Part shown: positions 5,707 to 54,800 of the stretch, piece after piece
Layout of the letters: each line of letters starts with the position of its first letter
Numbering within the stretch: the stretch's first letter is position 1
Source: Pegea sp. RAD2-039
Taxonomy: Eukaryota > Chordata > Thaliacea > Salpida > Salpidae
DNA: 64,000 nucleotides
Reading direction: 5' to 3'
Assembly: GCA_034620365.1 (NCBI GenBank)
Contig: JAQGEQ010000380.1
Coordinates: 930,001 to 994,000, forward strand
Notes under the pieces: model-generated
Databases searched by the model: none
What the model saw: the letters and a program-made list of their open reading frames with translations, nothing else
What the model was told of the DNA's origin: nothing
Made by a program: the position numbers and the translations under genes

Positions 5707-7386
5707 ATGTATGGTTTACAAAAAGTAAACACTTTGATATTTTATCGTAGTATAAGTGCTACTATAAGATCTGTAAAAGGGAAAAGGTTTAAACCAACAA
5801 GACAAGCCTTAGTATTAGTAAGTCTTATAGTTTATCTTTATTATAATAGACAACTTATGAACTACTTCTACTATATAAGATGTATTTGATGAATAATTTA
5901 TTTCTATAATATATAAATATTATGTGTACATGATTAACTCTATCTCATTTTTGATATTTGTTTCATATTTGATAAATATCAATCTATTTAAACTTATTAT
6001 TTATTTTATAAATAAAACCTTAAAAAAAGCCACCTAGAAATGTTTTTTTAATATTTGATATATCATTGTAATAAATACTTAAGTTTTATACTACTTTTTT
6101 ACCTAAATTATATTTTTCCTAGCATAAAACACTTCATAATATTTTTCAAAACTTTTCTATCATCCTTAAAATTTAAACTGAACTTAAAAACTAATTAGCT
6201 TAATAAAATTTAGACTTAAATAAAAATGACTAAAAAATAATTCTTTGCCCATTACTTTTACATCTGTTTTATCATAATCTTGAATGTGAACGATTGGCTG
6301 GCTACATATGCTTATAACTATAATTCATTCATTATCCTTTGTAATTTTCTTCTGTAAATTTCTAATAAGTATTTTTAGAAATTTTGTTGGGGAAAGTTTT
6401 TATTTCTGTTAAATATAATATATTTTATTGATTCTGTCTTAATTTTAAGATATTTTGAAATGTTTAATTGATACTTCTGCTATATTTGATGTTTGTTTTT
6501 TGTATTAACATTTCTTATTATAAATTTACATTGTTAAATTTGATTTTATCTAATTTTTTATTTGTTTCAGACCCAAAATGCTGTAGAAAAAATTAAAGAA
6601 TTATGTAAAACTCAAGATGAATCAAATCAAGTAATCTTTCCAAACAACTATTAATGATTGTATTAAAGAATATAGTTTTTCATATTTAATGTTAAGATAA
6701 TACATCGACTCTCAGTACTTGAAAGTTTGTCAAATAATTTCAGTTAACATATTGTAAATATGGTTTTACGTAATCATGTGACAGTTTTAAATTCTTTCTA
6801 ATAGTAGTATTTTCTTTGTATTTATGAGTACTCTTTTTTCAGACTTCTACACTTCGTATAGGAGTGAAGCAACGAGGCTGCAATGGATTGTCATATACAT
6901 TAGATTTCAATGATGAAAAACAAAGGTTCGACGAAGTTGTAAATCAAGATGGTGAGATAAATTATAAAATATATTTTTAGATTTCAATAAAATTTTGGCA
7001 GTTTTATTAATTCACTTGCTTCTGTATCAGAGGTTACCTATTAGCAGTTTTTATGTATAAAGAAAGTTTTAGTAATTGTAGATATTCTAAATTCAATGTT
7101 AAATTAATGAATATATGTATTTATCTTACATGAAAATTAAAACCTCAACTTAAATGGAATTTTACATTTTGTAACAAAATCTTCATTTACCCAAATTGAT
7201 TATTTGTTTATTTTCGTAATTATGTCTTATATTTCAGGAGTAAAAATTGTGATCGATTCTAAAGCTCAACTAACTCTACTAGGCACTGAAATGGATTATA
7301 TAAAAGATAGAATATCTAGTGGGTTCGTCTTTAACAATCCTAACATCAAAGGAACATGTGGTTGTGGTGAAAGTTTTAATATCTGA
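5707..7386 (+). CDS. ISCA1: ISCA1-type mitochondrial iron-sulfur cluster assembly protein
   Basis: Four exons join in frame: 5707..5817, 6571..6630, 6843..6951 and 7238..7386, giving 142 residues. The exon ends read GTAAGT, GTAATC and GTGAGA, with TTTCAG-type acceptors. The A-type (HesB/IscA) domain occupies roughly residues 38-142. It keeps the three conserved cysteines: Cys70 in RGCNGLSY, and Cys134 and Cys136 in the C-terminal GTCGCGESF. It also has the family blocks LLGTEMDY and FVFNNPNIKG. The first 37 residues are rich in Arg, Lys, Ser and Thr without acidic residues, as expected of a mitochondrial presequence. ISCA1 works with ISCA2 and IBA57 in making [4Fe-4S] clusters for mitochondrial enzymes (family knowledge). 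Its length is typical. A polyadenylation signal follows 28 bases after the stop. Confidence 0.95.
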
Positions 7387-9023: not shown

Positions 9024-9515
9024 CTAAAATAATTTATCATAATTTGATACAGGAAATAAAGTAGTACAAAATTTCTTAGTTAATTTTTCGAGAAGTTTAC
9101 ATCTTGCTAAAGGTTCTAAAAGCTCTTCTATCGTCATATCCTGTAAATAAGCCATCCCTACTGCTCCTAACATAATATGTGCCGACATCGAAGCATATTT
9201 ACCAATTTTGGTGTAAAACATTTCAATAAACGACCTTTTTCTTCTAAATAAACCTGTATTTTCCGGGTTATAAACCCAAATTCTTTTATCTGCTTGTTTT
9301 CTTTTTTTAGAGCTCTTTTTTGATGCATCCTCATCACCTTTTGCCTTTTCAACATTGAGGCTGTTCTTTTTATTGCTGACTTGAAAGGCGCGAACAATTT
9401 GGGCAGCAGCCTTACTTGAGGTTTGTGGGCGGCGGTTATGGATAGGAGAATAAAGTAAGGTTGGTTGTGAGCTAGTTTGAATCGATAGAACTCTTTTATT
9501 ATCAACAGGAGCCAT
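9024..9515 (-). CDS. Unrecognised basic protein, single exon
   Basis: An open frame of 163 residues from the ATG at 9515 to the stop at 9024. An upstream in-frame GTG is unlikely to be the start. The first 75 residues are Ser/Gln/Lys-rich and low in complexity, ending in a strong bipartite-like basic cluster (KKSSKKRKQADKR, about residues 64-76). The C-terminal 85 residues look folded: aromatic and hydrophobic with predicted helices (IEMFYTKIGKYASM, EELLEPLARCKLLEKL). No signal peptide or membrane segment is evident. I do not recognise the family. A lack of introns in an intron-rich neighbourhood could mean a retrogene, but no poly(A) tract is obvious. Codon use looks like that of the neighbours. 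The basic cluster suggests a nuclear or nucleolar protein (inference). Confidence 0.65.
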   Translation of the reverse strand: MAPVDNKRVLSIQTSSQPTLLYSPIHNRRPQTSSKAAAQIVRAFQVSNKKNSLNVEKAKGDEDASKKSSKKRKQADKRIWVYNPENTGLFRRKRSFIEMFYTKIGKYASMSAHIMLGAVGMAYLQDMTIEELLEPLARCKLLEKLTKKFCTTLFPVSNYDKLF

Positions 9516-11000
9516 TTTATCTAAAGCGGTCACACTTTAAGTTAAAAATTAGAAATTAAGTTTATCAATCTTAATAAATAATTTTATAAGAAAAACCATT
9601 AAAATTTTGGGAATTTATTAAATCATTAGAATATTTTGTAATAAAAATAATACCATAATAGTGACATAAATATTATTTTAAAGCAGTTGATATTTTTTTC
9701 ACATTTCATAAAAGTAATCTAAATTTATTTTAGGAAACATCTTACCTATTTCGCTGCTGTCCAATATGCTTCAATTTGTGACTACAAAATTAATCCTATG
9801 AGACAAAAACAAGGCAAGGGAATTCACAAACAACATAAAATATTAAATAAATATCCAACATTTGAAAATATCATTGTTTCTATTTCGTTTTCTGAAACTA
9901 GATATTATTGTAAAAGAATAATAATTATTACGTAACTACAAGATTAGAGATGTCTTGCAAGGTAGATAATAATAACACTTAATTCTAATTATATATTGGT
10001 AGCACATTATGTTGTAAATTATAAGCTATGAAACGGCGATTTTAATAAAATGTATAATTTGAGCTCATTAATACAATCAACTTAAAAATGACTCACATAG
10101 AACTTATATACTGATTTTGAAAATGCTTAAATTAATGATTTAAAAAGATCTATTTTAGTTCAAGCTTGTATAAGCTTCTAACAACATTAAGTAGAACCAG
10201 GTTTTGAAAGATTAAATAAATTAAAGTATTTTGATAAATGATTTAATAAAAGCGAATTAAGTAATAAACTATCAATTATCATAAACTTATCATGAAATGT
10301 TATAATAACTTTTATAATAATGCCAAGCTTTATTTCTCCAAAAAATTAGCCTTACTAGACTGTAAAAGTCACTGAGTAAATATTTAAAATATTACCTATC
10401 CATTTTTATAGTTTGATGACTTTGTTTACATAAGTTTGGCAGTTTTGAAAAAAAGGAACCAATCTTTTCATATCATTATTGCCTCTTTAGAGTTAAGTCA
10501 ATTAAAGTTATTAAGAAAAATCGAAGCTAATCTGTCAAATAGAAACTCAGAAAACAGTTGATAAGATCCCAGCTAACTATGAGAAATAGACAGAAATTAG
10601 TTACAGTTTTATTTTGTGACTTAATTTAGGGTTGTTCCTTGATTAACAATATTCATAAAATATAATCAAATGTCTAAATTATTTCTGTTGCTATTTAAGA
10701 TTGATTAATGTAAGCTCAAATTAATATGTTTTTAAACTATTTTAAATGTGATAAAACTGTTTAAACAAAATATTCAAATATTTAAGTTTATAATAATATA
10801 AATATGTTTAGTTTTTATCTACCTATTTAATTCCTAAAATTTAATCCTAATAGAATGATAAACAGCATTAGATAGAAAATTAATGATTAATAAATTTCAA
10901 CATCAAATGTTAGTACTTATAAATCTTTTGTTAATTGCAGAGATATTATAGTGAAAATTTGTGCTTTTTTCTTTCTGAAGATTAGTTTGTAATAGTCTAA
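9516..11000. other. Intergenic region between divergent genes
   Basis: About 1.5 kb of A+T-rich sequence between the basic-protein gene (minus) and the copper-transporter gene (plus). It should contain both promoters. No further coding, RNA or repeat feature was recognised. Confidence 0.45.
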
Positions 11001-15136: not shown

Positions 15137-16955
15137 ATGAACGCAAAATGCTTTATATTGCTTTTCATCAATTTGATCATAATAAAACTGAAAATTGTGG
15201 AGGGTGCCTATAGCTATGGAGTCAAAGAACCAGAAAGACATTTCATAACAAACCTTACAAAGATACTCAATAACAAATTTTATAATTTCGATAAAACTGA
15301 TGGCTCAGGAGACATATCAACAGAAGAACCCACAGAAGCAACTTCATCTACTAATGAGCCTTTATTTGGCGGTAAAAATTACGCAATGCTCTTATGTTAC
15401 TATCTTATGCTTAAAATATAGTTACTCTTATATTAACATGTCGTACTTGTTTAAAGTAATTTGATTTTTTACGTTGAAAACAACAATTCAATGAATGAAG
15501 TTTTAGTCGATTTAATACTCTGTTCTAAATTATGACTCAGTCAAAAACTGAGACAAGAAACATTTTAGACAAGTAAGAGATGTAGAGTTATGAAAAATAT
15601 TATCCTCACAAAAGTTACTTTGAAAAACACTTTGTTTTTAAGACCTTTTAGAAGTAGATTTGAATTTTGTCTTATTTGAAATATGTTACATAAATATTTA
15701 TTTTTCAAAATAAAATTTATTACGAGTCTAATAATCAAAGTTATCGCGACTTCATTAAATTTTCATGTTGTTAGAAGATCTTAAATTTCTTGTCCACTTT
15801 AAGCGGAGCTAATTTGTGTATTGATTCTCATTTAGAAATGACACTAAAGATTTATTGAGCTTTGTCAGCAAATGTTCCAGTAGAGTCTATGTAAAGTTAT
15901 AATAAGATTTTGTAATTTTGTATGAAAGTTGTAAAATTGTGGCTTTTAAATCGCAAAAAGTCTTATTTTCGTAAATCTTTTTATTTTAATTCTAAAACTA
16001 ATTTTTGTAGTTTGTTTCACCAATGATGATTGCAATTCACCTTTTGGAGAATGTATTGATGATGAAAATGGCTCTTATTGCTCATGCATAGCGACCATGT
16101 CAGGAAAATACTGTTACGATGGTAATTTACAATTTTTTATTTATCAAAAAAGAAAACTAGCAGCTATGTTTCTATCTAATAAAATAGACTACTGGCTAAA
16201 AATCAGGTTATTTAGTTTCAAATTTTATTTAAAGACAGTAGTTCTAAGCTTTTAAAAATGAATGACACTCATTTCAATAAAGCTAAAATTTAAATTTCAT
16301 AACAATTATAACTGTACAAAATATCATTAAAAAAGGTCAAATTAGACTATAAGTTTCAAGTAAAATAATTCAAAATAATTGATAATCAAAATAAAATTTA
16401 TATAAAAATTTTTAATAAAAGTCTTTAATAAGAACCATTCATCAATATAAAGTTCGTTAAAATTTGTTTAGTGATTTAAAAAACCTTCACTCATATTTCT
16501 TCCACAGCTTGGTTACTTGTTGTAATCGTTGTGTGTTCTGTAGTGGTATTTACAATTATCGTTTCTGCTTTTATCTACTGCTTACATCATAGAACTATTA
16601 ACAGAAATGAAGAAGAATACCCATTAGAACTGCACAGTGTAAGATATTCTTGCAGAAGTTTTGTATAAAATTATCACTAATATTTTTCTAATTAATCCAA
16701 AACGTAATAAATTCGAATTTTAATATTTTTTTAAACATTTTGATGTAAAAGTCATAGTTCTATTTTAAACAACTCTCAATTAGTTTGATTCAATGTTTGA
16801 TTACAAAGTTTTAAAATTGAAAAAAAATCATAACTACTTAATTATATGTATTTTTTATTAGACTTTAAAATCTTATGTTGTTTCAGCATCGTTTTCTTAA
16901 CTAATTTTATCACTTAAATACTTTGTTTATTGTTTTGCAGAGTACGCAAATCTAA
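15137..16955 (+). CDS. Small single-EGF type I membrane protein
   Basis: Four exons join in frame: 15137..15371, 16011..16121, 16508..16638 and 16941..16955, giving 163 residues. Residues 1-23 form a signal peptide (CFILLFINLIIIKLKIVEG). A short Ser/Thr/Glu-rich ectodomain follows, with N-glycosylation sequons such as NLT. One EGF-like domain with six Cys (spacing C-x5-C-x6-C-x8-C-x-C-x8-C) fills exon 2. Exon 3 holds a membrane helix (WLLVVIVVCSVVVFTIIVSA) and a cytoplasmic tail of about 25 residues. All inner introns of the ectodomain are phase 1, typical of shuffled extracellular modules. The EGF exon and membrane exon closely resemble those of the mucin gene downstream on the other strand: CNSPFGEC versus CNSPYGVC, and AWLLVV versus VWLLVF. 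It is probably a paralogue lacking the long repeat block. Function unknown. Confidence 0.82.
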
Positions 16956-16998: not shown

Positions 16999-19156
16999 TA
17001 ACTTTTATTATTTTTTATCGTTGGAATTTTTAATGGTTTTCTTAATGTTACTAAAATGGCTTAAAGAACTTAACTTCTTGTGATGGTAATTATATTAAGT
17101 AAAGAAATAAAGAACAATGTTTTGCAAATATTTAATAGTTTGCTCTTTAAAAATTTTTAATAAAATTTTCAAATTGAATCATTCGCTGAACGCTTTCATT
17201 TTTTTGTAAATGAAATTTAGAGTAGTTTATTCATTGGTGACGTAATAAAATAAGTTTGAAAAAGTTTTAAAATAATGAAACTTAGTGATAAAATAATCAG
17301 AACTTTTTGAAAAAACATTTTTTTATCATGGGTTCACAATTTATTTTGCAAAAAAAGGATTTAGAAAATAGAAATTTAGAACATTTAAGTGATAAACTCT
17401 TTACTAATTGAGTAAAATACAGAAACATTGTAGATAAAGCAAATCAGATTATTTTTAGTGTATACTTAAAATCACACTTTATACAAATTCATTTGTTGTA
17501 TGAAACATTTCAGTTAAAAAAAGACCTGTGTAAATTGTTTTCTATGACATCTGAAGATACCTAATAATAATTGTACTTCTAGCAAAAAGCATTCTTACGT
17601 TGACAGTAATGTTAACAACAAAGTATCAACTAGTTTTGTTATGCATTAAAAAATAATTCTTCTAAAATGTGATAAGATCTTCAGAATGTAATGATTAGAA
17701 CATTTTATAGAAAAACCTTTTGCCTACGTTAATTACATTATGTTATTTATGTAATAATTATAGAAGATTATATTTAGAACAAACTTGAAAACTTGAAAGT
17801 TTTGTCTAAAGTATGTAATATTTGTAAATAAATATTAATCATTAACTTGTAGTACGTGGGTACATTTCATTTGTGATGCTCAGCTTAGAAGATTTCGAAA
17901 TAGCAAACAATTTATTTAACAAACAGGAGGAATTTCGAAAAAACCTTCTTTACTTTTTATTTTTCATTATTATGAGATCATGTCATCTATTTACAATGAT
18001 CAAATGTAACATTTGAAAAGTCAATAGATTGTTCTAATAAAGGAGGCTTACATATAAAATATAGCAAATAGAATTTTAACAAACAGATAAAGTTGACTTT
18101 ATTAACAACTATAAAAATGTATGCTTTTTTATTATGACAATTTTACAACATTAAAATATGTGATTCAAATGTTTCAATTATTTTAATGGTTGGTTTCAAA
18201 TTGAGAAAAGAACACATAACGTCAAAAACTCAAACTTCTTAAGCTTGTAAGCTATCAAAAAACTTTTTTGAAATGTCCTAAATTTTACGACAAAAATAAA
18301 ATCACATTTAAAACGGATCAAACAAGCTTGTTATCGTTACAATAATTAGCAAAAGATAACAAAATTAAGAACATGATAAAATGAATTATTTGTTAACTTC
18401 ATGTATGCAACTTTAGGTTTTATTATACGATAGTTGTTTTTGTATACATTATTTTTTCTTATTTTAAAAACTTTGGATTAATCATTCTTTAACTGTTAGT
18501 AGCAAAATTCGAATTAATAATTATATTTTTATATTATATTATATAGAAATTTTGAAATAATTCTAAAAGCGGAAACTCAAAAAATTTCTACTGCTTCATA
18601 CACAGCATAAGATCTCCTTACAACGTTTATAGAAAAGTATAAAAATAAAGACCATAAATAAACTTTTATTTCATAACTTATTTCACAGAAGTTTGTAAAA
18701 TGATCCAGTAAAAAAGAAATTTCTCCATTTGTGAGTTGATACCATAAAATCATAAACAAACCAGTAGAAGATGAGACTATTCTTCAATAGCAAAGGATGG
18801 GTTTTTCTAGACATCAAAGAACAAATATTTAAATTATTGATTGAGATTGCAGACAATGTTTAAAACTTTATTTGCTAAATTGCTAGCTTTGTAAATGTTG
18901 ATAGTATGTGATTTCTAAGGAGACGTTTTGACGATAAGTTTTTACGATAGCTTGTTTTATAAAACAAATTTGTAATTTTTAACTGATCAAAATACAAATA
19001 AATATTTTAAACCAATCTATTTATCGCGTATGAATATTTTTCAAGTTTTAATAAATTCAAAAAGATATCAACGGGTGTTTTTAGATTTTTTGTTCAAACA
19101 ACTTTCGCTTATAACAATAGACTTTATAAATCTATGTGAAATGAATTTTTAAAACA

Positions 19157-19188: not shown

Positions 19189-20371
19189 CTATATAAACTT
19201 ACAAACGAAACATTTGAAGGCATTCTTGCTCGAAGACCCATGCTTGGAAGTTGATTCAATGATGGTTCCTAATGAATAATAATTATTTGTAAATAGTATT
19301 TTCATTTAGATAACAGATACTTTACATATAATTAACTCTTTTATATTTATTACTGAATTTTTACATTTTGATAAATAAGAAATTATCTTTTTTGAGTTAT
19401 AACTAATTTCTAAACTGGGTCAGCTAAAAAATTACTTTAATTAAGTGCTTAGCAACTACCAAACAGTTTAGTGAACGGTTATTAACCTTTCAACATGTTT
19501 TAATTAAAACAAAAATAAGTAATGAAATTTACATCACTCATCAAGCTAACCATCATATAAAGACCTCATGATGTATAAGTAATAATATTTCTATCGTAAA
19601 ACTACCAATAATGTATTAAAAAAATATAGAACAGCATGCAAATTTTCCCATTCTACATTTATAAAAAGCTTTGAAATCTATGTACAATGAAAATCAAGCA
19701 ATCATATTGTTTGACTTATTATTCAAATCTAAATTATATACCAATAATATAAACTTCAAACCTATACATTAATAAAGCTTTCTTTAAAATTGTATTTATA
19801 AAAGTGTAATTATGGAAAAGACATCTAAATCAACTTTATAAACATAAAACTATAATTTTACTTTCAAACTAGCATTATGTAATACACGCTCATTTCGAAG
19901 AAATTTTCCAGTTGAAAATATGATGCAATTGTTAAACTTGTTTAAAAAGTGAAATTACATTATTAAGATTTTATCATGCTGTTATAAAGTAGAAGCCAAA
20001 CAAAACATATTAAATATTTTTCAATATTGTCAATTGTTTCTATGACTCACCCAGAAAGGACTTTTTATCTAAAGATAAAGTAATTGGTGTTGATTTCTGT
20101 ATCCTTAGAACTTTAGTATTTATAATAAACATTTATTTAACAAATTCTTGCTGTGTAAGCGATTAGCGCAAAATAATAACACATTATAATTGATGTTTAA
20201 ATTTGCAATATTTTGCTAAGTTTATGTAAATACTTACGTATAAGTTTGTCATTACTACTTTTTTAGAATTTTTTAAACGTAGCTTGGATTTACGAACGCA
20301 TAAGACAAGTATAAAGATTAATAAAATAAATCCTAACAATGCCAATACGATGACGAATACCAGTAGCCACA
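19189..20371 (-). other. Mucin membrane helix and cytoplasmic tail (exons 8-10)
   Basis: Exon 20371..20238 starts with a long hydrophobic helix (WLLVFVIVLALLGFILLIF) followed by a basic stop-transfer segment (RKSKLRLKNSKK). Exon 20096..20051 and the last exon, read 19268..19189, add a Ser/Lys-rich tail ending in CKFI. The last junction (phase 1) is supported, but a GTAAGT inside the final exon leaves room for an alternative C-terminus. Confidence 0.7.
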
Positions 20372-23300
20372 CTGCAAATAATTTGAATTAAGTGTCAATT
20401 ATATGAAGTCAGTTATTTATTTGTTCATTTATAGTGTTATAAGCTTTTGATTTAAATATTTTTTCAGTTTTGTTTATGTTTGGTATATTTTATGGCTTGT
20501 AACTTACCGATATCACAGTTTTGTCCTAGAAATAATGTGTTACAAGCGCACGAGCCAGTTCCATTTTTTGCTGAGATATCACAAACGCCATATGGTGAGT
20601 TACAATCTCCGTTCTCAAGACATACCACCTCTAAAAACAGATTTAGAAATGATTTAATTAATTTTTTTTAATCTGCTATATATTGACTGCAAGATATTCT
20701 AATTAACATTTTAACTTCTTCATTAGAAAGTTAAGAGAAATCGAAAGTTTACAAAATTGAAGCTCTTACCGATGCAGCTTACTGTACTCCCATACACGTT
20801 GACAAATTTATCTTTACACTCACAAATTATAACTCCATCTTCAGTCGTACATTGAGTGCTTGATAAGTCACAAGCTTGTGTTTCACAAAGGAATTCTGAC
20901 GATGCTACAACATTGAAAATTTGTAAAGTTTTGTTAAAACTATAAGCTGGAAGATTTAAGATATACAACTGAAAATTCAACTTAAATCAACTATTTTTTA
21001 TTATATTGAGCCACCCTTAATTTAAAGTATTTTTAGTACAACTCTAAAAAGATTAACAATAAAAATTAAATGTCTAACTTCCAGCATTTTCTATTGTGGA
21101 TTTGGTATCTACGACCATACCATCAAAGATTGGACAACTATCATTACACTGTGAATAAAAGCAAGCTTAAAAATAAGAAAAAACTGAAAAAGAGAATAAT
21201 ACTGAAATAATTACAAGCTAGATACATAAATTTTGGATGATAATTTATATGATATTTAACTTTAAAGAAATGTTCAAATGATAAGTTTATTAAAATAAGA
21301 ATAAATAATTTCTTGCATACACTCAAGGCATTAGACATAGAAGTTTGTATGTCATCAACATCAGTTGTTGAATCAGATTGTAAAGTGATAATGTAATTCC
21401 AAATAAAACTGTCTTCTGGTGTATCATCATCAACAACGACGCTCAAAAAACCTTTCAAGTTTTTATATGTTTCATTGAGCTTTAAACAACATTTTCAAAA
21501 GTTTAAATAGTTTTAGAGTAGGAAGTAAACATTTGTTATCAGTAGAAATAAAAAAATGAGTATGCCAAAAACTACTTTGAACTTACAAATTGTGTGATAT
21601 TTTGAGACAATGTTTTTTCATTTGAAAAGCTTCTTCTAGAAGAACTCAGAATAAGCTTTCCACCAAATTGTCGCACTATATCAAAATAATATTTTTTATA
21701 ATCATGTATATTTTTCTAATAATGAATAGAAAAACTAATAAATAGTTCAAAATCAAATAAACTAACAGTTGATTTAAAGCAATTATAAAAAGTTTGAACA
21801 AATCTAACTAACAAACTTAAAATAATAGATAATGCTTAGAAAGTAGATAGTTAGAACCAACACACACTAATCAAGATCGAAATAGATATAAAGTTAAGCT
21901 TAAAGGGTATTAAACATTTGAACAAAAATATAGATTTTTTAATAAACATTTTGGTAACTTTAAAAAAAAATTAAACTACCAAATAAGAAGCAACACAAAG
22001 TAAGCAACAATTTGTAAGTGAAAAATTTATTGACCTTTTAAACATTTAGACAAATAGTTGAAATTATTAAATCCAGGCAAACAAGAACAACTATATGAAT
22101 TTCCTGATGAAATACATATACTTGCAGGGTCATTTTGACAAGGATTACTGCTACAAACATCACCTAAAAACAAAATCAAATATTATTTAAAAACAAACAA
22201 ATAAGTACTACCTGGAAAAACTTTAGTAGTTTGTTCAAAATCAGTGACAGTCTGATCTGTCGAAGATGATGTGGATGCAACAGCAGTTGTAACAGAAACG
22301 TTTTCTGTAGTTGTTGTACTATTTATTTCAGTTGGAAAAGTAACGGTACTATTATCATATCCAGTTGTTGTACTGTTTACTTCTGTTGGCAAAGTAACAG
22401 TACTATTGTCATATCCAGTTGTTGTAGTGTTTACTTCTGTTGGCCCAGTAACAGTACTATTGTCATATCCAGTTGTTGTAGTGTTTACTTCCATTGGCAA
22501 AGTAACAGTACTATTGTCATATCCAGTTGTTGTAGTGTTTACTTCTGTTGGCAAAGTAACAGTACTATTGTCATATCCAGTTGTTGTAGTGTTTACTTCT
22601 GTTGGCAAAGTAACAGTACTATTTTCATATCCAGTTGTTGTACTGGTTACTTCTGTTGGCAAAGTAACAGTACTATTATCATATCCAGTTGTTGTGCTGG
22701 TTACTTCTGTCGGAAAAGTAACAGTACTATTGTCATATCCAGCTGTTGTAGTGTTTACTTCTGTTGGCAAAGTAACAGTACTATTGTCATATCCAGTTGT
22801 TGTAGTGTATACTTCTGTTGGCAAAGTAACAGTACTATTTTCATATCCAGAAGTTGTACTAGTTACTTCAGTCGGCAAAGTAACAGTACTATTGTCATAT
22901 CCAGTTGTTGTAGTGTTTACTTCTATTGGCAAAGTAACAGTACTATTATCATATCCAGTTGTTGTACTGGTTACTTCTGTTGGCAAAGTAACAGAACTAT
23001 TTTCATATCCAGTTGTTGTAGTGTTTACTTCTATTGGCAAAGTAACAGAACTATTTTCATATCCAGTTGTTGTACTGGTTACTTCTGTTGGCAAAGTAAC
23101 AGTACTATTGTCATATCCAGTTGTTGTAGCGTTTACTTCTGTTGGAAAAGTAACAGTACTATTATCATATCCAGTTGTTGTACTGTTTACGTCTGTTGGA
23201 AAAGTAACAGTACTATTGTCATATCCAGTTGTTGTAGTGTTTACTTCTGTTGGAAAAGTAACAGTACTATTGTCATATCCAGTTGTTGTACTGTTTACGT

Positions 23301-26300
23301 CTGTTGGAAAAGTAACAGTACTATTTTCATATCCAGTTGTTGTACTGTTTACTTCTGTTGGAAAAGTAACAGTACTATTGTCATATCCAGTTGTTGTAGT
23401 GTTTACTTCTGTTGGAAAAGTAACAGTACTATTGTCATATCCAGTTGTTGTAGTGTTTACTTCTGTTGGAAAAGTAACAGTACTATTGTCATATCCAGTT
23501 GTTGTACTGGTTACTTCTGTTGGCAATGTAACAGTATTATTGTCATATCCAATTGTTGTAGCGTTTACTTCTGTTGGAAAAGTAACAGTACTATTGTCAT
23601 ATCCAGTTGTTGTACTGGTTACTTCTGTTGGCAAAGTAACAGTACTATTGTCATATCCAGTTGTTGTAGTGTTTACTTCTGTTGGCAAAGTAACAGTACT
23701 ATTGTCATATCCAGTTGTTGTACTGGTTACTTCTGTTGGCAAAGTAACAGTACTATTGTCATATCCAGTTGTTGTAGCGTTTACTTCTGTTGGAAAAGTA
23801 ACAGTACTATTATCATATCCAGTTGTTGTACTGTTTACGTCTGTTGGAAAAGTAACAGTACCATTGTCATATTCAGTTGTTGTAGTGGTTACTTCTGTTG
23901 GCAAAGTAACAGTACTATTATCATATCCAGTTGTTGTACTGTTTACGTCTGTTGGAAAAGTAACAGTACTATTTTCATATCCAGTTGTTGTACTGTTTAC
24001 TTCTGTTGGAAAAGTAACAGTACTATTGTCATATCCAGTTGTTGTAGTGTTTACTTCTGTTGGAAAAGTAACAGTACTATTGTCATATCCAGTTGTTGTA
24101 GTGTTTACTTCTGTTGGAAAAGTAACAGTACTATTGTCATATCCAGTTGTTGTAGTGTTTACTTCTGTTGGCAAAGTAACAGTACTATTGTCATATCCAG
24201 GTGTTGTAGTATTTACTTCTGTTGGCAAAGTAACAGTACTATTATCATATCCAGTTGTTGTACTGTTTACGTCTGTTGGAAAAGTAATAGTACTATTGTC
24301 ATATCCAGTTGTTGTAGTGTTTACTTCTGTTGGAAAAGTAACAGTACTATTGTCATATCCAGTTGTTGTAGTGTTTACTTCTGTTGGAAAAGTAACAGTA
24401 CTATTATCATATCCAGTTGTTGTACTGTTTACGTCTGTTGGCAAAGTAACAGTACTATTTTCATATCCAGTTGTTGTACTGTTTACTTCTGTTGGAAAAG
24501 TAACAGTACTATTTTCATATCCAGTTGTTGTAGTGTTTGCTTCTGTTGGAAAAGTAACAGTACTATTGTCATATCCAGTTGTTGTAGCGTTTACTTCTGT
24601 TGGTAAAGTAACAGTACTATTATCATATCCAGTTGTTGTAGTGTTTACTTCTGTTGGCAAAGTAACAGTACTATTTTCATATCCAGTTGTTGTAGTGTTT
24701 ACTTCTGTTGGCAAAGTAACAGAACTATTGTCATATCCAGTTGTTGTACTGGTTACTTCTGTTGGCAAAGTAACAGTACTATTATCATATCCAGTTGTTG
24801 TAGTGTTTACTTCTATTGGCAAAGTAACAGTACTATTGTCATATCCAGTTGTTGTACTGGTTACTTCTGTTGGCAAAGTAACAGTACTATTGTCATATCC
24901 AGTTGTTGTAGCGTTTACTTCTGTTGGAAAAGTAACAGTACTATTATCATATCCAGTTGTTGTACTGTTTACCTCTGTTGGAAAAGTAACAGTACTATTT
25001 TCATATCCAGTTGTTGTACTGTTTACGTCTGTTGGAAAAGTAACAGTACTATTTTCATATCCAGTTGTTGTACTGGTTACTTCTGTTGGCAAAGTAACAG
25101 TACTATTGTCATATCCAGTTGTTGTAGTGTTTACTTCTGTTGGAAAAGTAACAGTACTATTGTCATATCCAGTTGTTGTACTGTTTACCTCTGTTGGAAA
25201 AGTAACAGTACTATTTTCATATCCAGTTGTTGTACTGTTTACCTCTGTTGGAAAAGTAACAGTACTATTTTCATATCCAGTTGTTGTACTGTTTACCTCT
25301 GTTGGAAAAGTAACAGTACTATTTTCATATCCAGTTGTTGTACTGTTTACCTCTGTTGGAAAAGTAACAGTACTATTTTCATATCCAGTTGTTGTACTGG
25401 TTACTTCTGTTGGCAAAGTAACAGTACTATTGTCATATCCAGTTGTTGTAGTGTTTACTTCTGTTGGAAAAGTAACAGTACTATTGTCATATCCAGTTGT
25501 TGTAGTGTTTACTTCTGTTGGAAAAGTAACAGTACTATTGTCATATCCAGTTGTTGTAGTGTTTACTTCTGTTGGTAAAGTAACAGTACTATTATCATAT
25601 CCAGTTGTTGTAGTGTTTACTTCTGTTGGCAAAGTAACAGTACTATTTTCATATCCAGTTGTTGTAGTGTTTACTTCTGTTGGCAAAGCAACAGAACTAT
25701 TGTCATATCCAGTTGTTGTAGTGTTTACTTCTGTTGGAAAAGTAACAGTACTATTATCATATCCAGGTGTTGTAGTGTTTACTTCTGTTGGCAAAGTAAC
25801 AGTACTATTATCATATCCAGTTGTTGTACTGTTTACGTCTGTTGGAAAAGTAACAGTACTATTGTCATATCCAGTTGTTGTAGTGTTTACTTCTGTTGGC
25901 AAAGTAACAGTACTATTGTCATATCCAGTTGTTGTACTAGTTACTTCAGTCGGCAAAGTAACAGTACTATTGTCATATCCAGAAGTTGTACTAGTTACTT
26001 CAGTCGGCAAAGTAACAGTACTATTGTCATATCCAGTTGTTGTAGTGTTTACTTCTATTGGCAAAGTAACAGAACTATTTTCATATCCAGTTGTTGTACT
26101 GGTTACTTCTGTTGGCAAAGTAACAGTACTATTGTCATATCCAGTTGTTGTAGCGTTTACTTCTGTTGGAAAAGTAACAGTACTATTGTCATATCCAGTT
26201 GTTGTAGTGTTTACTTCAGTCGGCAAAGTAACAGTACTATTGTCATATCCAGAAGTTGTACTAGTTACTTCAGTCGGCAAAGTAACAGTACTATTGTCAT

Positions 26301-29300
26301 ATCCAGTTGTTGTAGTGTTTACTTCTATTGGCAAAGTAACAGTACTATTGTCATATCCAGTTGTTGTAGTGTTTACTTCTGTTGGAAAAGTAACAGTACT
26401 ATTGTCATATCCAGTTGTTGTAGTGTTTACTTCTGTTGGAAAAGTAACAGTACTATTGTCATATCCAGTTGCTGTACTGGTTACTTCTGTTGGCAAAGTA
26501 ACAGAACTATTTTCATATCCAGTTGTTGTACTGGTTACTTCTGTTGGCAAAGTAACAGTACTATTGTCATATCCAGTTGTTGTAGCGTTTACTTCTGTTG
26601 GAAAAGTAACAGTACTATTGTCATATCCAGTTGTTGTACTGGTTACTTCTGTTGGCAAAGTAACAGAACTATTTTCATATCCAGTTGTTGTACTGGTTAC
26701 TTCTGTTGGCAAAGTAACAGTACTATTATCATATCCAGTTGTTGTAGTGTTTACTTCTGTTGGAAAAGTAACAGTACTATTGTCATATCCAGTTGTTGTA
26801 GTGTTTACTTCTGTTGGCAAGGTAACAGTACTATTATCATATCCAGTTGTTGTAGTGTTTACTTCTGTTGGAAAAGTAACAGTACTATTGTCATATCCAG
26901 TTGTTGTAGTGTATACTTCTGTTGGCAAAGTAACAGTACTATTTTCATATCCAGAAGTTGTACTAGTTACTTCAGTCGGCAAAGTAACAGTACTATTGTC
27001 ATATCCAGTTGTTGTAGTGTTTACTTCTATTGGCAAAGTAACAGTACTATTATCATATCCAGTTGTTGTACTGGTTACTTCTGTTGGCAAAGTAACAGAA
27101 CTATTTTCATATCCAGTTGTTGTAGTGTCTACTTCTGTTGGCAAAGTAACGGTACTATTATCACTTCCAGTTGCTGTACTGCTTACTTCTGTTGGCAAAG
27201 TAACAGAACTATTTTCATATCCAGTTGTTGTACTGGTTACTTCTGTTGGCAAAGTAACAGTACTATTGTCATATCCAGTTGTTGTAGCGTTTACTTCTGT
27301 TGGAAAAGTACAGTACTATTTTCATATTCAGTGGTTGTAGTGGTTACTTCTGTTGGCAAAGTAACAGAACTATTTTCATATCCAGTTGTTGTAGTGTTTA
27401 ATTCTGTTGGCAAAGTAACAGTACTATTTTCATATCCAGTTGTTGTACTGTTTACGTCTGTTGGAAAAGTAACAGTACTATTGTCATATCCAGTTGTTGT
27501 AGTGTCTACTTCTGTTGGAAAAGTAACAGTACTATTTTCATATCCAGTTGTTGTACTGGTTACTTCTGTTGGCAAAGTAACAGTACTATAGTCATATCCA
27601 GTTGTTGTAGTGTTTACTTCTGTTGGCAAAGTAACAGTACTATTGTCATATCCAGTTGTTGTAGTGTCTACTTCTGTTGGAAAAGTAACAGTACTATTTT
27701 CATATCCAGTTGTTGTAGTGGTTACTTCTGTTGGCAAAGTAACAGTACTATTGTCATATCCAATTGTTGTAGTGTTTACTTCTGTTGGCTCAGTAACAGT
27801 ACTATTGTCATATCCAGTTGTTGTAGTGTTTACTTCTATTGGCAAAGTAACAGTACTATTGTCATATCCAGTTGTTGTAGTGTCTACTTCTGTTGGCAAA
27901 GTAACAGTACTATTTTCATATCCAGTTGTTGTAGTGTTTACTTCTGTTGGCAAAGTAACAGTACTATTTTCATATCCAGTTGTTGTAGTGTTTACTTCTG
28001 TTGGCAAAGTAACAGTACTATTGTCATATCCAGTTGTTGTAGTGTTTACTTCTGTTGGATAAGTAATAGTACTATTGTCATATCCATTTGTTATAGTGTC
28101 TACTTCTGTTGGCAAAGTAACAGTACTATTGTCATATCCAGTTGTTGTAGTGTCTACTTCTGTTGGCAAAGTAACAGTACTATTTTCATATCCAGTTGTT
28201 GTAGTGTTTACTTCTGTTGGAAAAGTAACAGTACTATTGTCATATCCAGTTGTTGTAGTGTCTACTTCTGTTGGAAAAGTAACAGTACTATCTTCATATC
28301 CAGTTGTTGTACTGGTTACTTCTGTTGGAAAAGTAACAGTACTAATTTCATATCCAGTTGTTGTAGTGTCTACTTCTGTTGGAAAAGTAACAGTACTATT
28401 GTCATATCCAGTTGTTGTAGTGTCTACTTCTGTTGGAAAAGTAACAGTACTATTTTCATATCCAGTTGTTGTAGTGTCTACTTCTGTTGGAAAAGTAACA
28501 GTACTATTTTCATATCCAGTTGTTGTAGTGTCTACTTCTGTTGGAAAAGTAACAGTACTATTTTCATATCCAGTTGTTGTACTGGTTACTTCTGTTGGAA
28601 AAGTAACAGTACTATTATCATATCCAGTTGTTGAAGTGTTTACTTCTGTTGGCAAAGTAACAGTACTTTTATCATATCCAGTTGTTGTAGTATTTACTTC
28701 TGTTGGCAAAGTAACAGTACTATTGTCATATCCAGTTGTTGTAGTGTTTACTTCTGTTGGATAAGTAATAGTACTATTGTCATATCCATTTGTTGTAGTG
28801 TCTACTTCTGTTGGCAAAGTAACAGTAGTATTGTCATATCCGGTTGCTGTGCTGGTTACTTCTGTTGGCAAAGTAACAGTACTTTTATCATATCCAGTTG
28901 TTGTAGTATTTACTTCTGTTGGCAAAGTAACAGTACTATTGTCATATCCAGTTGTTGTAGTGTTTACTTCTGTTGGATAAGTAATAGTACTATTGTCATA
29001 TCCATTTGTTGTAGTGTCTACTTCTGTTGGCAAAGTAACAGTAACTATTGTCATATCCAGTTGTTGTACTGGTTACTTCTGTTGGCAAAGTAACAGTACT
29101 ATTGTCATATCCAGTTGTTGTAGTATTTACTTCTGTTGGTAGTAAAGTAACAGTACTATTATCATATCCAGTTGTTGTAGTGTCTACTTCTGTTGGCAAA
29201 GTAACGGTACTTTTATCATATCCAGTTGTTGTAGTGTTTACTTCTGTTGGCAAAGTAACAGAACTATTTTCATATCCAGTTGTTGTACTGGTTACTTCTG

Positions 29301-29944
29301 TTGGCAAAGTAACAGTACTATTGTCATATCCAGTTGTTGTAGTGTCTACTTCTGTTGGAAAAGTAACAGTACTATTTTCATATCCTGTTGTTGTACTGGT
29401 TACTTCTGTTGGCAAAGTAACAGTACTATTGTCATATCCAGTTGTTGTACTGGTTACTTCTGTTGGAAAAGTAACAGTACTATTATCATATCCAGTTGTT
29501 GTAGTGTTTACTTCTGTTGGCAAAAGTAACAGTACTATTGTCATATCCAGTTGTTGTAGCGTTTACTTCTGTTGGCAAAGTAACAGTACTATTGTCATAT
29601 CCAGTTGTTGTAGTGTCTACTTCTGTTGGAAAAGTAAAAGTACTATTTTCATATCCAGCTGTTGTACTGGTTACTTCTGTTGGCAAAGTAACAGTACTAT
29701 TTTCATATCCAGTTGTTGAAGTGTTTACTTCTGTTGGAAAAGTAATAGTACTATTGTCATATCCATTTGTTGTAGTGTCTAGTTCTGTTGGCAAAGTAAC
29801 AGTACTATTATCATATCCAGTTGTTGTAGTGTCGGTACCGCCTATAAAAGTCACAGATCTTTCAAGATCATTTGCTTTTGTTGTTATTTCTTCTTTGGCG
29901 ATTACTAATATTAAACCTACCAGGGTAACGTATAATTGATTCAT
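19189..29944 (-). CDS. Large transmembrane mucin with EGF-like modules
   Basis: Exons on the minus strand: 29944..22212, 22163..22035, 21675..21587, 21479..21321, 21148..21079, 20904..20770, 20630..20508, 20371..20238, 20096..20051 and 19268..19189. The ectodomain introns are mostly phase 1. The product starts with a signal peptide (MNQLYVTLVGLILVIA). It continues with about 139 copies of an 18-residue Thr/Ser-rich repeat, then an EGF-like domain, a region that may be SEA-like, two more EGF-like domains, a membrane helix and a tail of about 60 residues. This is the layout of a membrane-bound mucin: a heavily O- and N-glycosylated brush on the cell surface. As assembled, three single-base indels in the repeat block (near 29522, 29043 and 27308) leave the signal peptide and membrane end in different frames. 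Assembly error in the repeats is the likeliest cause, but a broken allele is possible. No orthologue name is justified; repeat proteins of this kind diverge fast. Confidence 0.8.
20508..20904 (-). other. Mucin EGF-like domains 2 and 3 (exons 6-7)
   Basis: Exon 20904..20770 has six Cys in EGF order (CETQACDLSSTQC, then CEC and a last Cys). Exon 20630..20508 has another set (CLENGDCNSPYGVC, then CAC and a last Cys in GQNC). Both are phase 1-1 exons. The second is the one most similar to the EGF exon of the small plus-strand gene at 16011..16121. Confidence 0.8.
21079..21675 (-). other. Mucin juxta-EGF region, possibly SEA-like (exons 3-5)
   Basis: Exons 21675..21587, 21479..21321 and 21148..21079 encode about 105 residues. 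They begin RQFGGKLIL, include three possible N-glycosylation sites (NIT, NET, NDS) and end FDGMVVDTKSTIENAG. The position between EGF modules, the length and the alternating beta/helix look fit a SEA domain as found in membrane mucins. I see no clear GSVVV-type autoproteolysis site, so this is only a suggestion. Confidence 0.4.
22035..22163 (-). other. Mucin EGF-like domain 1 (exon 2)
   Basis: A single exon with phase 1 borders encodes six Cys in EGF order: C-SSNP-C-QNDPASI-C, then C-S-C and a final Cys after LPGFNNFNYLSK. It directly follows the repeat block and joins in the frame of the 22183-27252 part of the array. Confidence 0.8.
22330..29835 (-). repeat. 54-bp tandem repeat array coding for the mucin domain
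   Basis: About 7.5 kb made almost wholly of a 54-bp unit, roughly 139 copies. The consensus product is STVTLPTEVNTTTTGYDN (18 residues). Variants fall into a few classes: LPTEV/FPTEV/LPIEV/FPTDV, VNTTT/VTSTT/VNATT/VDTTT/VNSTT, and GYDN/GYEN. Most units keep one sequon at NST or NSS and many a second at NTT. The Tyr of GY and the PTE core are nearly invariant. Units of one class cluster, and multi-unit blocks recur, so the array grew by unequal exchange or slippage of both single and multi-unit segments. One unit (near 29138) carries an in-frame three-base insertion giving LLPTEV. Confidence 0.97.
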
Positions 29945-42800: not shown

Positions 42801-45800
42801 GATGTTCTTTGCTTCTTTGATTAATTTTTTGGTTTCTATCAAATTATTTTCAGTTATCTTTTTTTCATTTACCAACTTTTCGATGCTACTCTGTGTAAAC
42901 CAAACAAACAATCAAATTTTCAGCAAATATGAAGTAATATAAACCGCAAATAAACTATAAACAAAAAGCTTATGGATAAACTTCTAGTTTTTATTTACTT
43001 ATATGCAATAATAAATTTATAAATCACAAAGCCTCACAAACTGAGTTCTGTAATTATGTTTTGTCTCTTCACTCACCTTGCTTTGACGTAAAGTTTGTCT
43101 ATTTAGATTATTGGTGATGTTCGTTGCTTTTAATTGCTTTTTTGTTTTGGACAAAAAGTCAGAAATTTCATTAAATTTTTGCCGAATTTTAGCAATTGTT
43201 CTATTGATAATTTCCATCTTCTCTTCTATTAATTTATTTACTAGTGGTTTCATCTTATGAATTGTAGTATTGGTCTCAACCAAAAATGATTTCGCTTTAC
43301 TGGGAACAAATATCATGTTTTCAAACCACTTTAAACTATTTGTAGTATGATTTATTGAACTCTAAGTCTTAATATAACCAATCCAAACAAATATCCAAGC
43401 AATAATCAGTATTTATAAAGAAAGATAGATAAAACTAACCTTAGTTCAACTCTAGCCACCATCGTGTAGTAGTACATGGGTATGGCATTCATTTTTTCAA
43501 CTAATTCATAAACCTTTTCATTAAATTCGTTGATAGTTTGAATATTTCCTTTAACCATTTCCCTCTTTAATCTTCTCATTTTCTGACTGAGAGCTATAGA
43601 AATTGGTGATAAGAAATTAGTTACCACAACAAAAAAATATCTTGACTAAGCTTACCTAATGAAGATTGTAATAAACCTTCAACTTGCTTATTCAAAGAGT
43701 TCACTATGGAAGAAGTTGATTTAGACTTCAAAATCAACTTTCTAGATTTTGTTGTGCATTTTTTCACCTAATGAGTTTACATAAAGATAAAATATTATAA
43801 GGATAGTTAAGGTTGCACCATTGAACAGTGTTCAGTTCTTAGTCAAAAGATTTTAGTTATTTAAAATGTTTGCTTTCAAGAAATATTTACATTTGGTGAT
43901 ATCACAAATATAAAAGTATCATTCTAAACTAATAATGGTTAAATAACTTAAAGAAAACTAATAGGTTTGTTTCAATAAGGTTTATCTTATGGTTTATATT
44001 CTGGCTACAAGATTATATCATTTCTTTGAAATATCTGAACTATTTTAACATTCTTTAAACAAATATTTAATTTCAACAAACATATATTATAAAAGCAGCT
44101 TTCTAAACGTTTTTCGTTTTCTAAGAGATTTCGTTCAATTAAGATATTAAACCAGTATTTAAAACCACTTAATGAAAGTATTTCTTTTGTGGTGAAGATT
44201 GTATAGATACAAAAGAATCAAGTAGCCTTTGAAATTAATTAATCTGTCTATTATATTGCTAGCAATTACATTGTGATATATCTATACATAAATTTATTTT
44301 ATTTTCTAAATATAGCTTTTTTAGTTGATTAAACAGTTTTGATTTAAAAACTACTTCTTAGCCAGATCTAAACTTTAATTTTTTACATTTTTATAAATTT
44401 GCTAAACTTTTTACCTCTTTTTGTAACCGATTAAACATCTTTTTTATTTTCTTTAATTTTTTTCTGAGACTATTCTTTTTTCTCTGTAAGTTTTCTTCTG
44501 TGATGTTTATCTTTCTACCAAACTAGAAGAACAAAAATAAACCAAATGAAAAATTCTTTAAAGATTTTAGTTACCAAAATTTCTTCAAGTTTTCGAGTTG
44601 CATTCTGCAATCGTTGCCACGGTGTCAATGAGGAAGTTACGTTAACTCTAATAATTGTTTTCAACAAGTTTGTTTCCATCAATAAATTTTCCACGCAATC
44701 ATCTGTACATTCTTTTCAAAATAATAAAAGATAAATTTTCAATAAATTGTAAATAACTTTTACCGAAGCATTTGAAATAATTCACCTTTGCATCCTGTGT
44801 TCGTAATAATATGATGAGTATCACATTGATCACAAACTCTTCCGGTGATTCCTGCATCACAATTACATTGTCCGGTAGTCTTATTACAAGCTCCATCAAT
44901 TGATCCTGCTACATTGCATCCGCATTTCTTACAAGATCCTCCTAATATAGTAGGAGCTCCAAAATAACCATCAGAGCATCTTCAAAAAAGTTAATCATTA
45001 AATTAATTTGTTGGTGACACGCAAAGTACTGACTAAAAGCATTTATAACATCTATGTAGACATTCAGATAACAGTAATTCTTAAACTCTAATATTGCGGG
45101 TGATCAATAAAGTTTATCAGCAATTCTGTGATTAAGTGGAAAGCTAGAAATTATTTATGCTCACATTTCACAATATTTTCCTTCATAGCCAGCAGCACAT
45201 TCATCACACGTGTAACCAGCTTGCTTGTTATAGTCTTTGTGGCAAGTCAGACTAAAGGTATTTGATGGATTAGTGGAGGGGCAGGCACACTTCACGCATT
45301 TGTTTTCATGAAGATAAAATCCTGGCTTACATAACTCACAATGAGCTCCAGTAAAGTTTCTTTCACAATGCTGGAAAATTAATGAGAATAAAAAACTGTA
45401 AAAAATTATTTTTATCTCACAAGAAAAATGTCTTATGCATATTAGGTTAAGATAGTTTAAATACAATTAAAATATTTTGTAAAAAAGAGCAAATATAAGT
45501 ACTTGTTTTTAAAACAATTCATTTTATAAATTTTCAGCTTATGAAAGGTTTACTATTTTCGAACTTCTAACCTTTCGATAAAACCTTATACAGCAATGAT
45601 TTGAAAAGTTAAGAAAACTTATATTATTTCTAACTTAAACTTATTTTATATGTTTTTCCATTTATTTTATGTATGTTTAAAATTATCACTACTGAAAAAG
45701 AATATTTTTTAGCGATTTGAGTGTTGGAGTACTTAAAAAAATTATTATGATAGATTTATAGCAAAAAAGTATATACGTTATATATATTATTATATGTTTC

Positions 45801-51800: not shown

Positions 51801-54800
51801 TATAATTGTTTTAAAAGTGTAAATAAAAGATTTGTTCACTTTTGCTTATGTGTAGTTCGGTTCTAAAATAGAATAAAAATTACCATAAATAGTTCGATGA
51901 TTCACATTCAGAAGTGGCTTTACTGCAAAAGCAACTTTCACAGCCAAACGAGTTTTCTGAGTGTAAATTAAAGTATCCTGGTTTGCATTGATCACAGTGT
52001 TTCCCAACCACATTTTTCTGAAATATTGAGAAAAGTAATCATAATTATCAAAGCATAAACAAAGATCTATCAAATTGTTTTATATCTTAGTTTTCAATTG
52101 AAGATTTACTTATTTTAAATTACAAGGATTTCGTTAAAGAACTAAATCGTGAGTTTTCGAAAAAGTCTTTGTATTTTGAAAAACAACAAACAATTAAATG
52201 ATAATCAACAATTTACTTTACAGTTACAGCTTCCAGCGCAAGGATCGTTATTCAAGCTTCCCTGTATGCTGCAAGCACAAGGATAACATAGAGGGAAGTC
52301 ATGGTAACCAGAAGCGCATCTAAAATAACAAACAACGTCTTAACCACAGATTTGAAATTTTTTAAGTAAATAAACTTGACATAAATTTTAATACAAGTTA
52401 ATAATACTCGGTACCATTTTTATGATAATTGAATGCAAGAAAATATAATAGTTTGTTAAAATTTGCTATGCTTTAAAATATGAATTTATGAATTTTATTT
52501 ACTTATGTCAACCCTATGATAATAAAATAAAAAATAAATAACAAGAACAATTAGGATGTTTAAACCTGTCACAATAAATGCCAGAATATCCTTTTTTGCA
52601 TTGACATGTTCCTGGCATAACCCCACTTCCATCATTAATGTCTTTAACACATACAAATGAGCCAGAAGTTGTTTGTGTTCCGTGAGTATCACATTGACAT
52701 TCCATGCAAGGAAAAGCCGCATTAGGTGGAACATTATAAGGTCTGTAATAGCCATCTTGACATCTATACAAATTTGGTAAATTAAATCACACTATTTATC
52801 AAATTCAACTTTTTAATTTATTGGTGTTCACTCTGTGCAAATATACTTTTCTTGTAAACTTCGTAATTTATATCTTTGACATTTATTCAGACGAGACTTT
52901 TCCATTTTTTTATTACTTCAAACAATTTTGTTTTATTTTAGTATCAGTTAAAAACAAATATTGGATATTAACAAATGTAACTGGCTCTAGTTTACCGATA
53001 TTCATTTCTCTTTGAATTGTGATAGAAGATCCATCAAAATTATATAAAAATAAAATATGAACTACGAATCTATTACTTTCAATTTCTTGATACATTTAAA
53101 TTTTCTTTTCACTAAAAGCTTTGTCTAATTTTACAATTTAGATTAAGTAGAAGGATTCCAGACAATGTTTTTTTAATTTAAGATTTATTTTGACTAATAG
53201 CATTTAGTTTAATAAAAATAAATTCATTAAAGAATAAGTTAACTAACCTTTCACAGTTGATTCCTTCAGTAAAATGCTTGCATTCGATACAAACACCACC
53301 ACCAGAATACTCTCCATCAACATTTAAGCTTTCTTGCCGATTTTCTACATGTTTATCGTAATAACATTCATCAGAGTGACCGTGACAGTTACAGGCTAAA
53401 TTAAAAACGATTCATTAAGAGACTATTCAAGAAATGTCCAACAAAATAGTTGAAGAGTTACGTTTGCAAATAAATCCACTTGTTCCTGGTTGCCATTTAT
53501 ACTGATTGTAATTTGGCTTGCATCGTTCGCAGTTTTCGCCAGAGGTGTGATGTTCACATGCGCATGAAAATAACTGAAAAATGATATTTTTTGTAAATGA
53601 TTTGAATAACAAAACAGTTTTTTAAATATTTGCTGATTATCCAAGAATGCTAACTCCGACATTATCATTTTTTTTATCTTTTTATCATGATTGTTCAATT
53701 ACACTGCATTTACATCAAGTCAACATCACAAGATACCTGGCTTCTTGAATTCATAGAGCAATCACGTGCGTGCCCATTACAGATACACATGCCTCCAATG
53801 CTGATATCTTTTAGTGAATAGAAATACTGTAAAATATTAGTATCTGGCTAAAGTCAAGGATAAAATTAGATATTCAGATGAAAGCTATTACATTCCAAAA
53901 ACATGAAAAATATTCAGATAAAAACATTACAAACAGTATAATGTTTCTCACTTCCAAATCATCACAGCTTAAAAATAAGTTTCATATTTAGTTTGTTAGT
54001 CAAGTTTTTGTTCAAACATTTTAACATGATATAAAATGTATGAACTAATCATTTAAGGATTACTAATAGAACCTTTCATTATCAAGCACCGCCATTTTCT
54101 AATCGTACAAGTTTACAAATCCTCTGTCATTAATTAAGCCTATTAGCTGTAAAAGCATTGGTACTAAAAGGTTGGAAATGAATGGAATCCATCTGAAATT
54201 AAAGTCTTCACAATTATTTCTTTTCATAGTCAGACTTTCTGGCGACAAAAGTGAAACAATTTTTTGTTCTTTTTACAGCTACTTTGGAAGCACAATCGAT
54301 TTTGGGATTTATGTCATCATGAGGGATTTCATTTATGATTTTTTTACTAAGTCATTTTATGATGATTTTGGAGTAGAAAAATAAAACCTTTTGATTTGTA
54401 GTTCAGACTTCATGAGCTTACCTCTTAAGTAGAAACAATTAAATCTGGGTAATAAGCATAAATTAAATAATACTAAAAGGTTGTTTCAGTGAAATACTTA
54501 GGTAATAGAAACTATTAACAACTAATTTTATGAAAAAAGTTTGTATTTGAAGACCATCTTTTCTCATCAAAATAAAAATAAGAAAAAATTAAATGTTTTA
54601 ATTCGTACTATCTTCAAATAGTCGCTGAATTTACTCAGGGTTGTTGTCACGTGTTTTTCTCGCTTGACAGAAAATATAACGCTGACGTAATGAGTAATAA
54701 GATCTGCATCGTGAGATGAGGATATATTATCCACTGTATGTTCTGGAAGTTTACTCTGGTAACTAAATAATGTCGAACCTAAAACTCTTGCATCTAGAAA

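Follow-up and report, generated by a model that had tools for sequence, protein, structure and literature searches.

A likely membrane mucin gene with a 139-unit, N-sequon-rich repeat exon, and its relatives in the genome of the salp Pegea sp. RAD2-039

A 64,000-nucleotide stretch of the salp Pegea sp. RAD2-039 (GenBank assembly GCA_034620365.1, contig JAQGEQ010000380.1, forward-strand positions 930,001 to 994,000), here called the window and used for all numbering unless another locus is named, carries on its minus strand a long coding repeat. From our sequence analyses, we conclude that the locus is likely a type I membrane mucin gene, in which one exon is filled by 139 repeat units of 54 bp and is followed by exons for a putative membrane anchor (Table 1). 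The family has at least six members in the same genome, this gene included, as established by family searches and reading of the loci. Between these relatives only the Ser/Thr richness of the stalk appears to be kept, while the anchor module persists. Dense N-glycosylation sequons (N-sequons) together with Tyr are a trait of this one gene and not of the family.

The array was delimited at 22309–29832 by Tandem Repeats Finder (TRF; period 54, 139.3 copies, 92% matches, score 12448), and an anchor count independent of TRF gave 139 units, spaced by exactly 54 bp in 134 of 138 cases. Both confirm as real the array of about 139 copies of a 54-bp, 18-residue unit that the initial annotation had described from the letters alone; to that description we add its placement on the minus strand, its interruptions and a gene model that runs about 3.5 kb past it. 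Read on the minus strand, the 18-residue unit is GYDNSTVTLPTEVNTTTT. Unit statistics were scored on the 135 of 139 units that are exactly 54 bp long, the four odd-length units being excluded, and no scored unit has a stop in the coding frame. These units comprise 69 distinct sequences at the DNA level and 54 at the protein level. Pro is kept in all 135, Gly and Tyr in 134 each, and the Pro is followed by Thr in 127 and Glu in 126; two N-sequons are present in 80 units, one in 50 and none in five, 210 in total. The Pro-Thr-Glu core, the Gly-Tyr and the one or two sequons that had been ascribed to each unit are thus nearly, but not strictly, constant. Ser and Thr make up 44.6% of the array and Pro 5.6% (two open pieces, 2258 residues), and the model places the whole array in a single exon. 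No higher-order repeat was seen, the profile being flat over lags 1–30 (3.65–4.15 differences per 54), and exact runs of three or more units number only three in the array (shuffle mean 0.08, maximum 1).

The gene model comprises 11 exons on the minus strand (29944–18777), of which the array fills the first. The encoded order is a predicted signal peptide, the repeats, an EGF-like domain, a SEA-like region, two further EGF-like domains, a predicted transmembrane helix and a 56-residue tail. The exons after the array (22163 to 18777), ten in number, join in frame at GT-AG sites up to a stop. The array, the exon order with a frame open outside it and the sister genes are direct observations. Splice sites were picked by eye, exon 9 (18 bp) being the weakest, and the borders of exons 5 and 6 were set by homology to two relatives. 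In one sister gene, C38 distal, signal peptide and array likewise share one fully open exon with a phase-1 end. A profile built from this gene and three relatives matches, over the first EGF-like domain (EGF1), the EGF of NELL1 in PDB (E=5.3e-5); the second and third (EGF2 and EGF3) have no Pfam call and are based on cysteine pattern and conservation. The candidate transmembrane helix has a hydropathy of 3.55, the runner-up within the C-terminal part reaching 1.01.

Transmembrane mucins are laid out as signal peptide, Pro/Thr/Ser-rich (PTS) or variable-number tandem repeat region, SEA, EGF, transmembrane segment and tail, according to the available parts of two sources (PMC9080433, PMC9578598). 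The features of such mucins that are present here are the predicted signal peptide, the single transmembrane helix and the short tail, all by hydropathy, EGF-like domains near the membrane and a Ser/Thr-rich repeat exon. On the features tested, the gene would belong to the broad kind of membrane mucins. The mucin reading of the initial annotation stands, and with the gene model, Pfam, the PDB profile and hydropathy it can be extended: the mucin would be a membrane one, with an anchor next to an EGF/SEA-like module.

By analogy with known membrane mucins, we infer that the product is secreted to the cell surface, glycosylated and active as a barrier. The array would encode a long, extended stalk (about 2,500 residues, 45% of them Ser/Thr), on which dense O-glycans are expected together with, unusually, about 200 N-glycan sequons. 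Tethering to the cell would be through the module of EGF, SEA-like region and two further EGF domains, followed by a single transmembrane helix and a short tail that bears a family motif. Such a molecule would probably act as a tethered glycocalyx rod that lines an epithelium with a barrier or spacer, charged and hydrated, and its array would turn over in sequence and length by unequal exchange and conversion.

The sister genes were found in a search of 105.7 Mb of AT-rich genome in 387 contigs. The five relatives are a minimum, and further weak matches exist (for example C3, E=0.0043, and C125, E=0.083). The full module of EGF, SEA-like region, EGF, EGF and transmembrane helix is present in this gene, in C42 at a contig end (36% identity to this gene) and in two loci of C38, at 573–575 kb (27%) and at 602–605 kb (C38 distal, 30%). 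As modelled, C38 at 595–599 kb (C38 proximal) and a neighbour within the window have the last EGF and the helix only; in the neighbour Pfam calls no EGF. In three of the full-module genes the exon ahead of EGF1 has a phase-1 end, and in C42 the phase-1 acceptor of EGF1 was located and its donor partner was not found. This gene has the motif GLRA in its tail, and C38 573 kb and C38 distal have it as well, in frames that lie downstream of their helices; inspection by eye gave PLRA for C42 and LATR for C38 proximal.

Mucin stalks are hard to trace because their repeats leave little homology, and sister genes with a common anchor and several stalks in one small genome allow one to ask what a stalk conserves. 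The stalk of C42 consists of at least 12 copies of a 39-residue unit, the contig ending inside the array. The same 39-residue array recurs on C34 (666858–668372); either a mucin array has been split by a break in the assembly, or there is a second gene. C38 distal has a mix of 5-residue EATTD and 10-residue units, C38 proximal about 71 copies of a 10-residue unit, and the C38 locus at 573–575 kb a short, PTTQ-like stalk of three copies; the model of the window neighbour has no stalk array. Ser and Thr amount to 44.6% in the present array, 53.5% in C42, 43.1% in C38 distal and 46.5% in C38 proximal, whereas N-sequons, at 8.77 per 100 residues here, are absent from all three sister arrays. Aromatic residues make up 8.0% here, against 0.2% in C42, 0.2% in C38 distal and 0.7% in C38 proximal. 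The combination of N-sequons and aromatic residues, which the initial annotation had called unusual among mucins, is indeed unusual within this family. Pro, at 5.6% here, is only 0.2–3.0% in the sister arrays, which are thus Thr-rich and not Pro-rich. What is conserved in the stalk here is Ser/Thr content, and not motif, period or Tyr, and the dense N-sequons of the array gene are a testable oddity.

In the array of C38 distal (L042 1–1092, L040 9333–9900), we also observed a central block of 10-residue units resembling those of its C38 proximal neighbour, a likeness that points to exchange between adjacent paralogues.

The region between EGF1 and EGF2, about 105 residues long, has SEA as its top Pfam match when scanned alone (E=0.00049), and its position between EGF domains is as in known mucins; we grade it SEA-like. 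The Gly-Ser cleavage motif is not present in this region, the sole G[SAT] match being GTSSE at its very end. This suggests an uncleaved anchor, unlike MUC1, in which autoproteolysis takes place between Gly and Ser of GSVVV, as stated in the available part of PMC9564314. A search of the whole genome with PF01390 gave four sub-threshold matches and none here, in a search by exon that would split the domain.

Several results weigh against a membrane mucin of this design. The SEA match, at 20.6 bits, is below the Pfam curated cut-off of 26.4 and was obtained in one of the four full-module members, and VPS53_C is a close second (E=0.0025). A profile of the SEA-like region matches no SEA structure in PDB, and its alignment to the human MUC1 SEA domain with hhalign was no better than that to two unrelated controls. 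Exon 4 folded alone gave an all-helical model of three helices, with a predicted local distance difference test (pLDDT) score of 57.7, too low to count. Pfam calls no domain in the C42 relative. As assembled, the frame that opens at the ATG is lost at the first odd-length unit (29548–29494) and ends about 150 residues in. Finally, over all pairs of units the ratio of amino-acid-changing to silent differences (pN/pS) reaches 1.37 in the coding frame; among the six frames it is lowest, at 0.78, in an antisense one where 4 of 134 units contain a stop.

These ratios are accompanied by a neutral pattern of rare variants, defined as those present in at most three of the 135 units. There are 36, of which 27 change an amino acid and nine are silent, 28% being expected to be silent. 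Together, the pN/pS of 1.37, the neutral rare variants and the lowest ratio in an antisense frame mean that no constraint is seen on the repeat protein. The uniformity of the units looks like homogenisation without visible constraint within the array, and nothing in the variant pattern speaks for selection acting on the protein that the repeats encode.

An alternative explanation is a receptor similar to HEG1, of the EGF type and serving adhesion or signalling, whose function lies mainly in the EGF module and the tail and whose mucin stalk is no more than a spacer. The two members that keep only EGF3 and the helix as modelled, one of them without an array, are in line with such a receptor, as are the full-module member with a stalk of merely three PTTQ-like copies, the GLRA motif common to members and the layout of HEG itself, given in the available part of PMC1552070 as PTS, EGF and transmembrane segment with no SEA. 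Yet arrays are kept in four of six members, and one of about 2,500 residues is more than a spacer seems to need, so that we regard a receptor as unlikely.

The interruptions of the array raise the question of a degenerating mucin gene, in which the breaks are real, the allele can yield no more than a short secreted peptide and the array now persists as a coding-derived minisatellite. Three units differ in length by one base (29548–29494, 29058–29004 and 27329–27277), two being one base too long and one a base too short, and a fourth (29169–29113) has a 3-base insertion. One-base length changes are a common error of long-read assemblies in repeats. The breaks may thus be assembly errors or mark a true null allele, and they are too few to decide between error and decay: there are three in this array, at least one in C38 proximal, which likewise loses its frame inside the array, and none in C38 distal or in the C42 stretch. 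Decay would also agree with the neutral spectrum of unit variants. Nevertheless, all 135 scored units are free of stops, the ten exons 3' of the array keep open frames, splice sites and conserved cysteines, the arrays of C38 distal and C42 are fully open over the stretch examined, and all three breaks are of the kind usual for long-read errors. We therefore consider degeneration improbable, and rate it a little below the receptor.

The initial annotation had proposed that an invariant Tyr is sulfated or cross-linked to give a periodic coat. Tyr recurs every 18 residues, in 134 of the 135 scored units, which invites this idea, but rare variants strike the Tyr codon at the average rate for the 18 codons (2 of 36, both in one unit), and 27 of the 36 variants are amino-acid-changing, against about 70% expected, at a pN/pS of 1.37. 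This pattern counts against a special role of Tyr. Since the sister arrays contain at most 0.7% aromatic residues and the gene model is membrane-anchored, a Tyr-based coat protein is very improbable. A plus-strand open frame of 1,694 residues opposite the array (22256–27340) probably arises simply from the unit length being a multiple of three, and that it is the real gene can practically be dismissed: one antisense frame does have the lowest pN/pS (0.78), but a 54-bp unit stays open in any frame without a stop, in the two antisense frames that are mostly open 4 and 6 of 134 units contain stops against none in the coding frame, and no attached domain or splice structure was found on the plus strand, whose flanks were not searched exhaustively.

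Starting from the membrane mucin as the favoured explanation, we tentatively propose, at somewhat less than even confidence, that EGF/SEA membrane mucins have expanded into a separate family in this invertebrate. Whole blocks of repeats would be exchanged for others from one paralogue to the next, the membrane module and the GLRA tail motif would be kept, and one member would have gained a dual N-/O-glycan brush. If so, SEA-type membrane mucins would occur well outside vertebrates, and selection on a mucin stalk would preserve composition and not sequence.

Among the 57 matches listed for the 18-residue unit in its own genome, those elsewhere were only frames of a satellite in C93 and one antisense match, and six fragments of the unit had no occurrence in 5.39 million open-access papers. 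The C93 matches (14 of the 57) were rejected as relatives, as they are frames of a 27-bp satellite in a stretch of 43% G+C. That stretch is dense in satellites (units of 27, 29, 30 and 18 bp), compares with 23–31% G+C in eleven other stretches of the genome, and is possibly foreign sequence. The assembly yielded no match to the COX1 family, none to two published Brachionus plicatilis primers (PMC11219915) at up to one mismatch, and none to a rotifer spliced-leader sequence at up to three mismatches. Arthropod cuticle (PF00379) and nematode cuticle collagen (PF01484) likewise had no match, a result that carries no information, as the control genomes had none either. The window further contains a laminin-alpha-like multi-exon gene on the minus strand (34267–55712), with laminin EGF exons by Pfam at 45161–45466 and 52514–52786 and coiled-coil and LG-like exons seen by eye. 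An exon at 9024–9536 (minus) resembles RNA polymerase III subunit RPC82 (E=1.4e-4, under the cut-off), and one at 7141–7386 (plus) resembles an iron-sulphur cluster assembly protein (E=5.7e-7, over the cut-off).

Table 1. Features of the likely mucin gene and of the neighbouring relative, in window positions.
Feature	Position	Strand	Basis
Tandem array, 139 x 54 bp, 18 residues, interrupted by three one-base length changes and a 3-base insertion	22309..29832	-	TRF, anchor count, unit scoring
Exon 1: start codon at 29944, putative signal peptide, the 139 repeat units and a short Ser/Thr linker; phase-1 end	22212..29944	-	Open frame, sister gene C38 distal
Putative signal peptide, hydrophobic core LYVTLVGLILVIA	29897..29944	-	Hydropathy 2.78 over 13 residues
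Exon 2: EGF-like domain 1	22035..22163	-	Pfam EGF E=0.0028, 18.3 bits, under cut-off 21.5
Exon 3: SEA-like region, first part, QF.G motif	21587..21675	-	QF.G in 4/4 full-module members
Exon 4: SEA-like region, middle	21321..21479	-	Pfam SEA E=0.00049, 20.6 bits, cut-off 26.4
Exon 5: SEA-like region, end	21079..21148	-	Border from homology to two relatives
Exon 6: EGF-like domain 2	20770..20904	-	Six cysteines conserved in relatives; C42 exon match E=4.5e-4
Exon 7: EGF-like domain 3 (CNSPYGVC)	20508..20630	-	Cysteine pattern; C42 E=6.1e-9, C38 E=3.3e-5
Exon 8: predicted transmembrane helix and start of cytoplasmic tail	20238..20371	-	Hydropathy 3.55 over 19 residues
Exon 9: six codons of the tail, the weakest of the exons	20051..20068	-	Splice sites and phase only
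Exon 10: part of the tail that bears GLRA	19203..19268	-	GLRA also downstream of helix in two C38 relatives
Exon 11: tail end NPSFAIEE and stop	18777..18806	-	Gene model
Neighbouring relative as modelled: predicted signal peptide, a single EGF-like domain and a transmembrane helix; array absent, model without 3' end	15137..16637	+	EGF exon E=0.0011 and 4.4e-6, two family queries

Among known mucins, the vertebrate MUC3A/MUC3B/MUC12/MUC17 cluster resembles this gene in having one giant PTS exon of short repeats (17 residues in MUC3), with SEA, transmembrane segment and tail in further exons, and in consisting of paralogues with a conserved C-terminus and faster-changing repeats, as described in the available part of PMC9578598. 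The present gene differs from that cluster in its weak SEA-like region without the Gly-Ser cleavage motif, its three EGF-like domains, its approximately 1.5 N-sequons and one Tyr per unit, and its GLRA tail motif; at 105.7 Mb, its genome is also far smaller than the known vertebrate genomes. MUC13 and HEG1 are alike in their layout of PTS, EGF and transmembrane segment, and in both cases forms with and without SEA stand side by side; they differ in having other repeats, those of chicken Muc13 being split over exons (PMC1552070, same part). The invertebrate case has a precedent in the MUC1-like protein of the sea anemone Actinia tenebrosa, for which the available part of PMC9080433 gives a signal peptide, a PTS region, SEA and a transmembrane segment, but names no EGF and mentions no 18-residue array.

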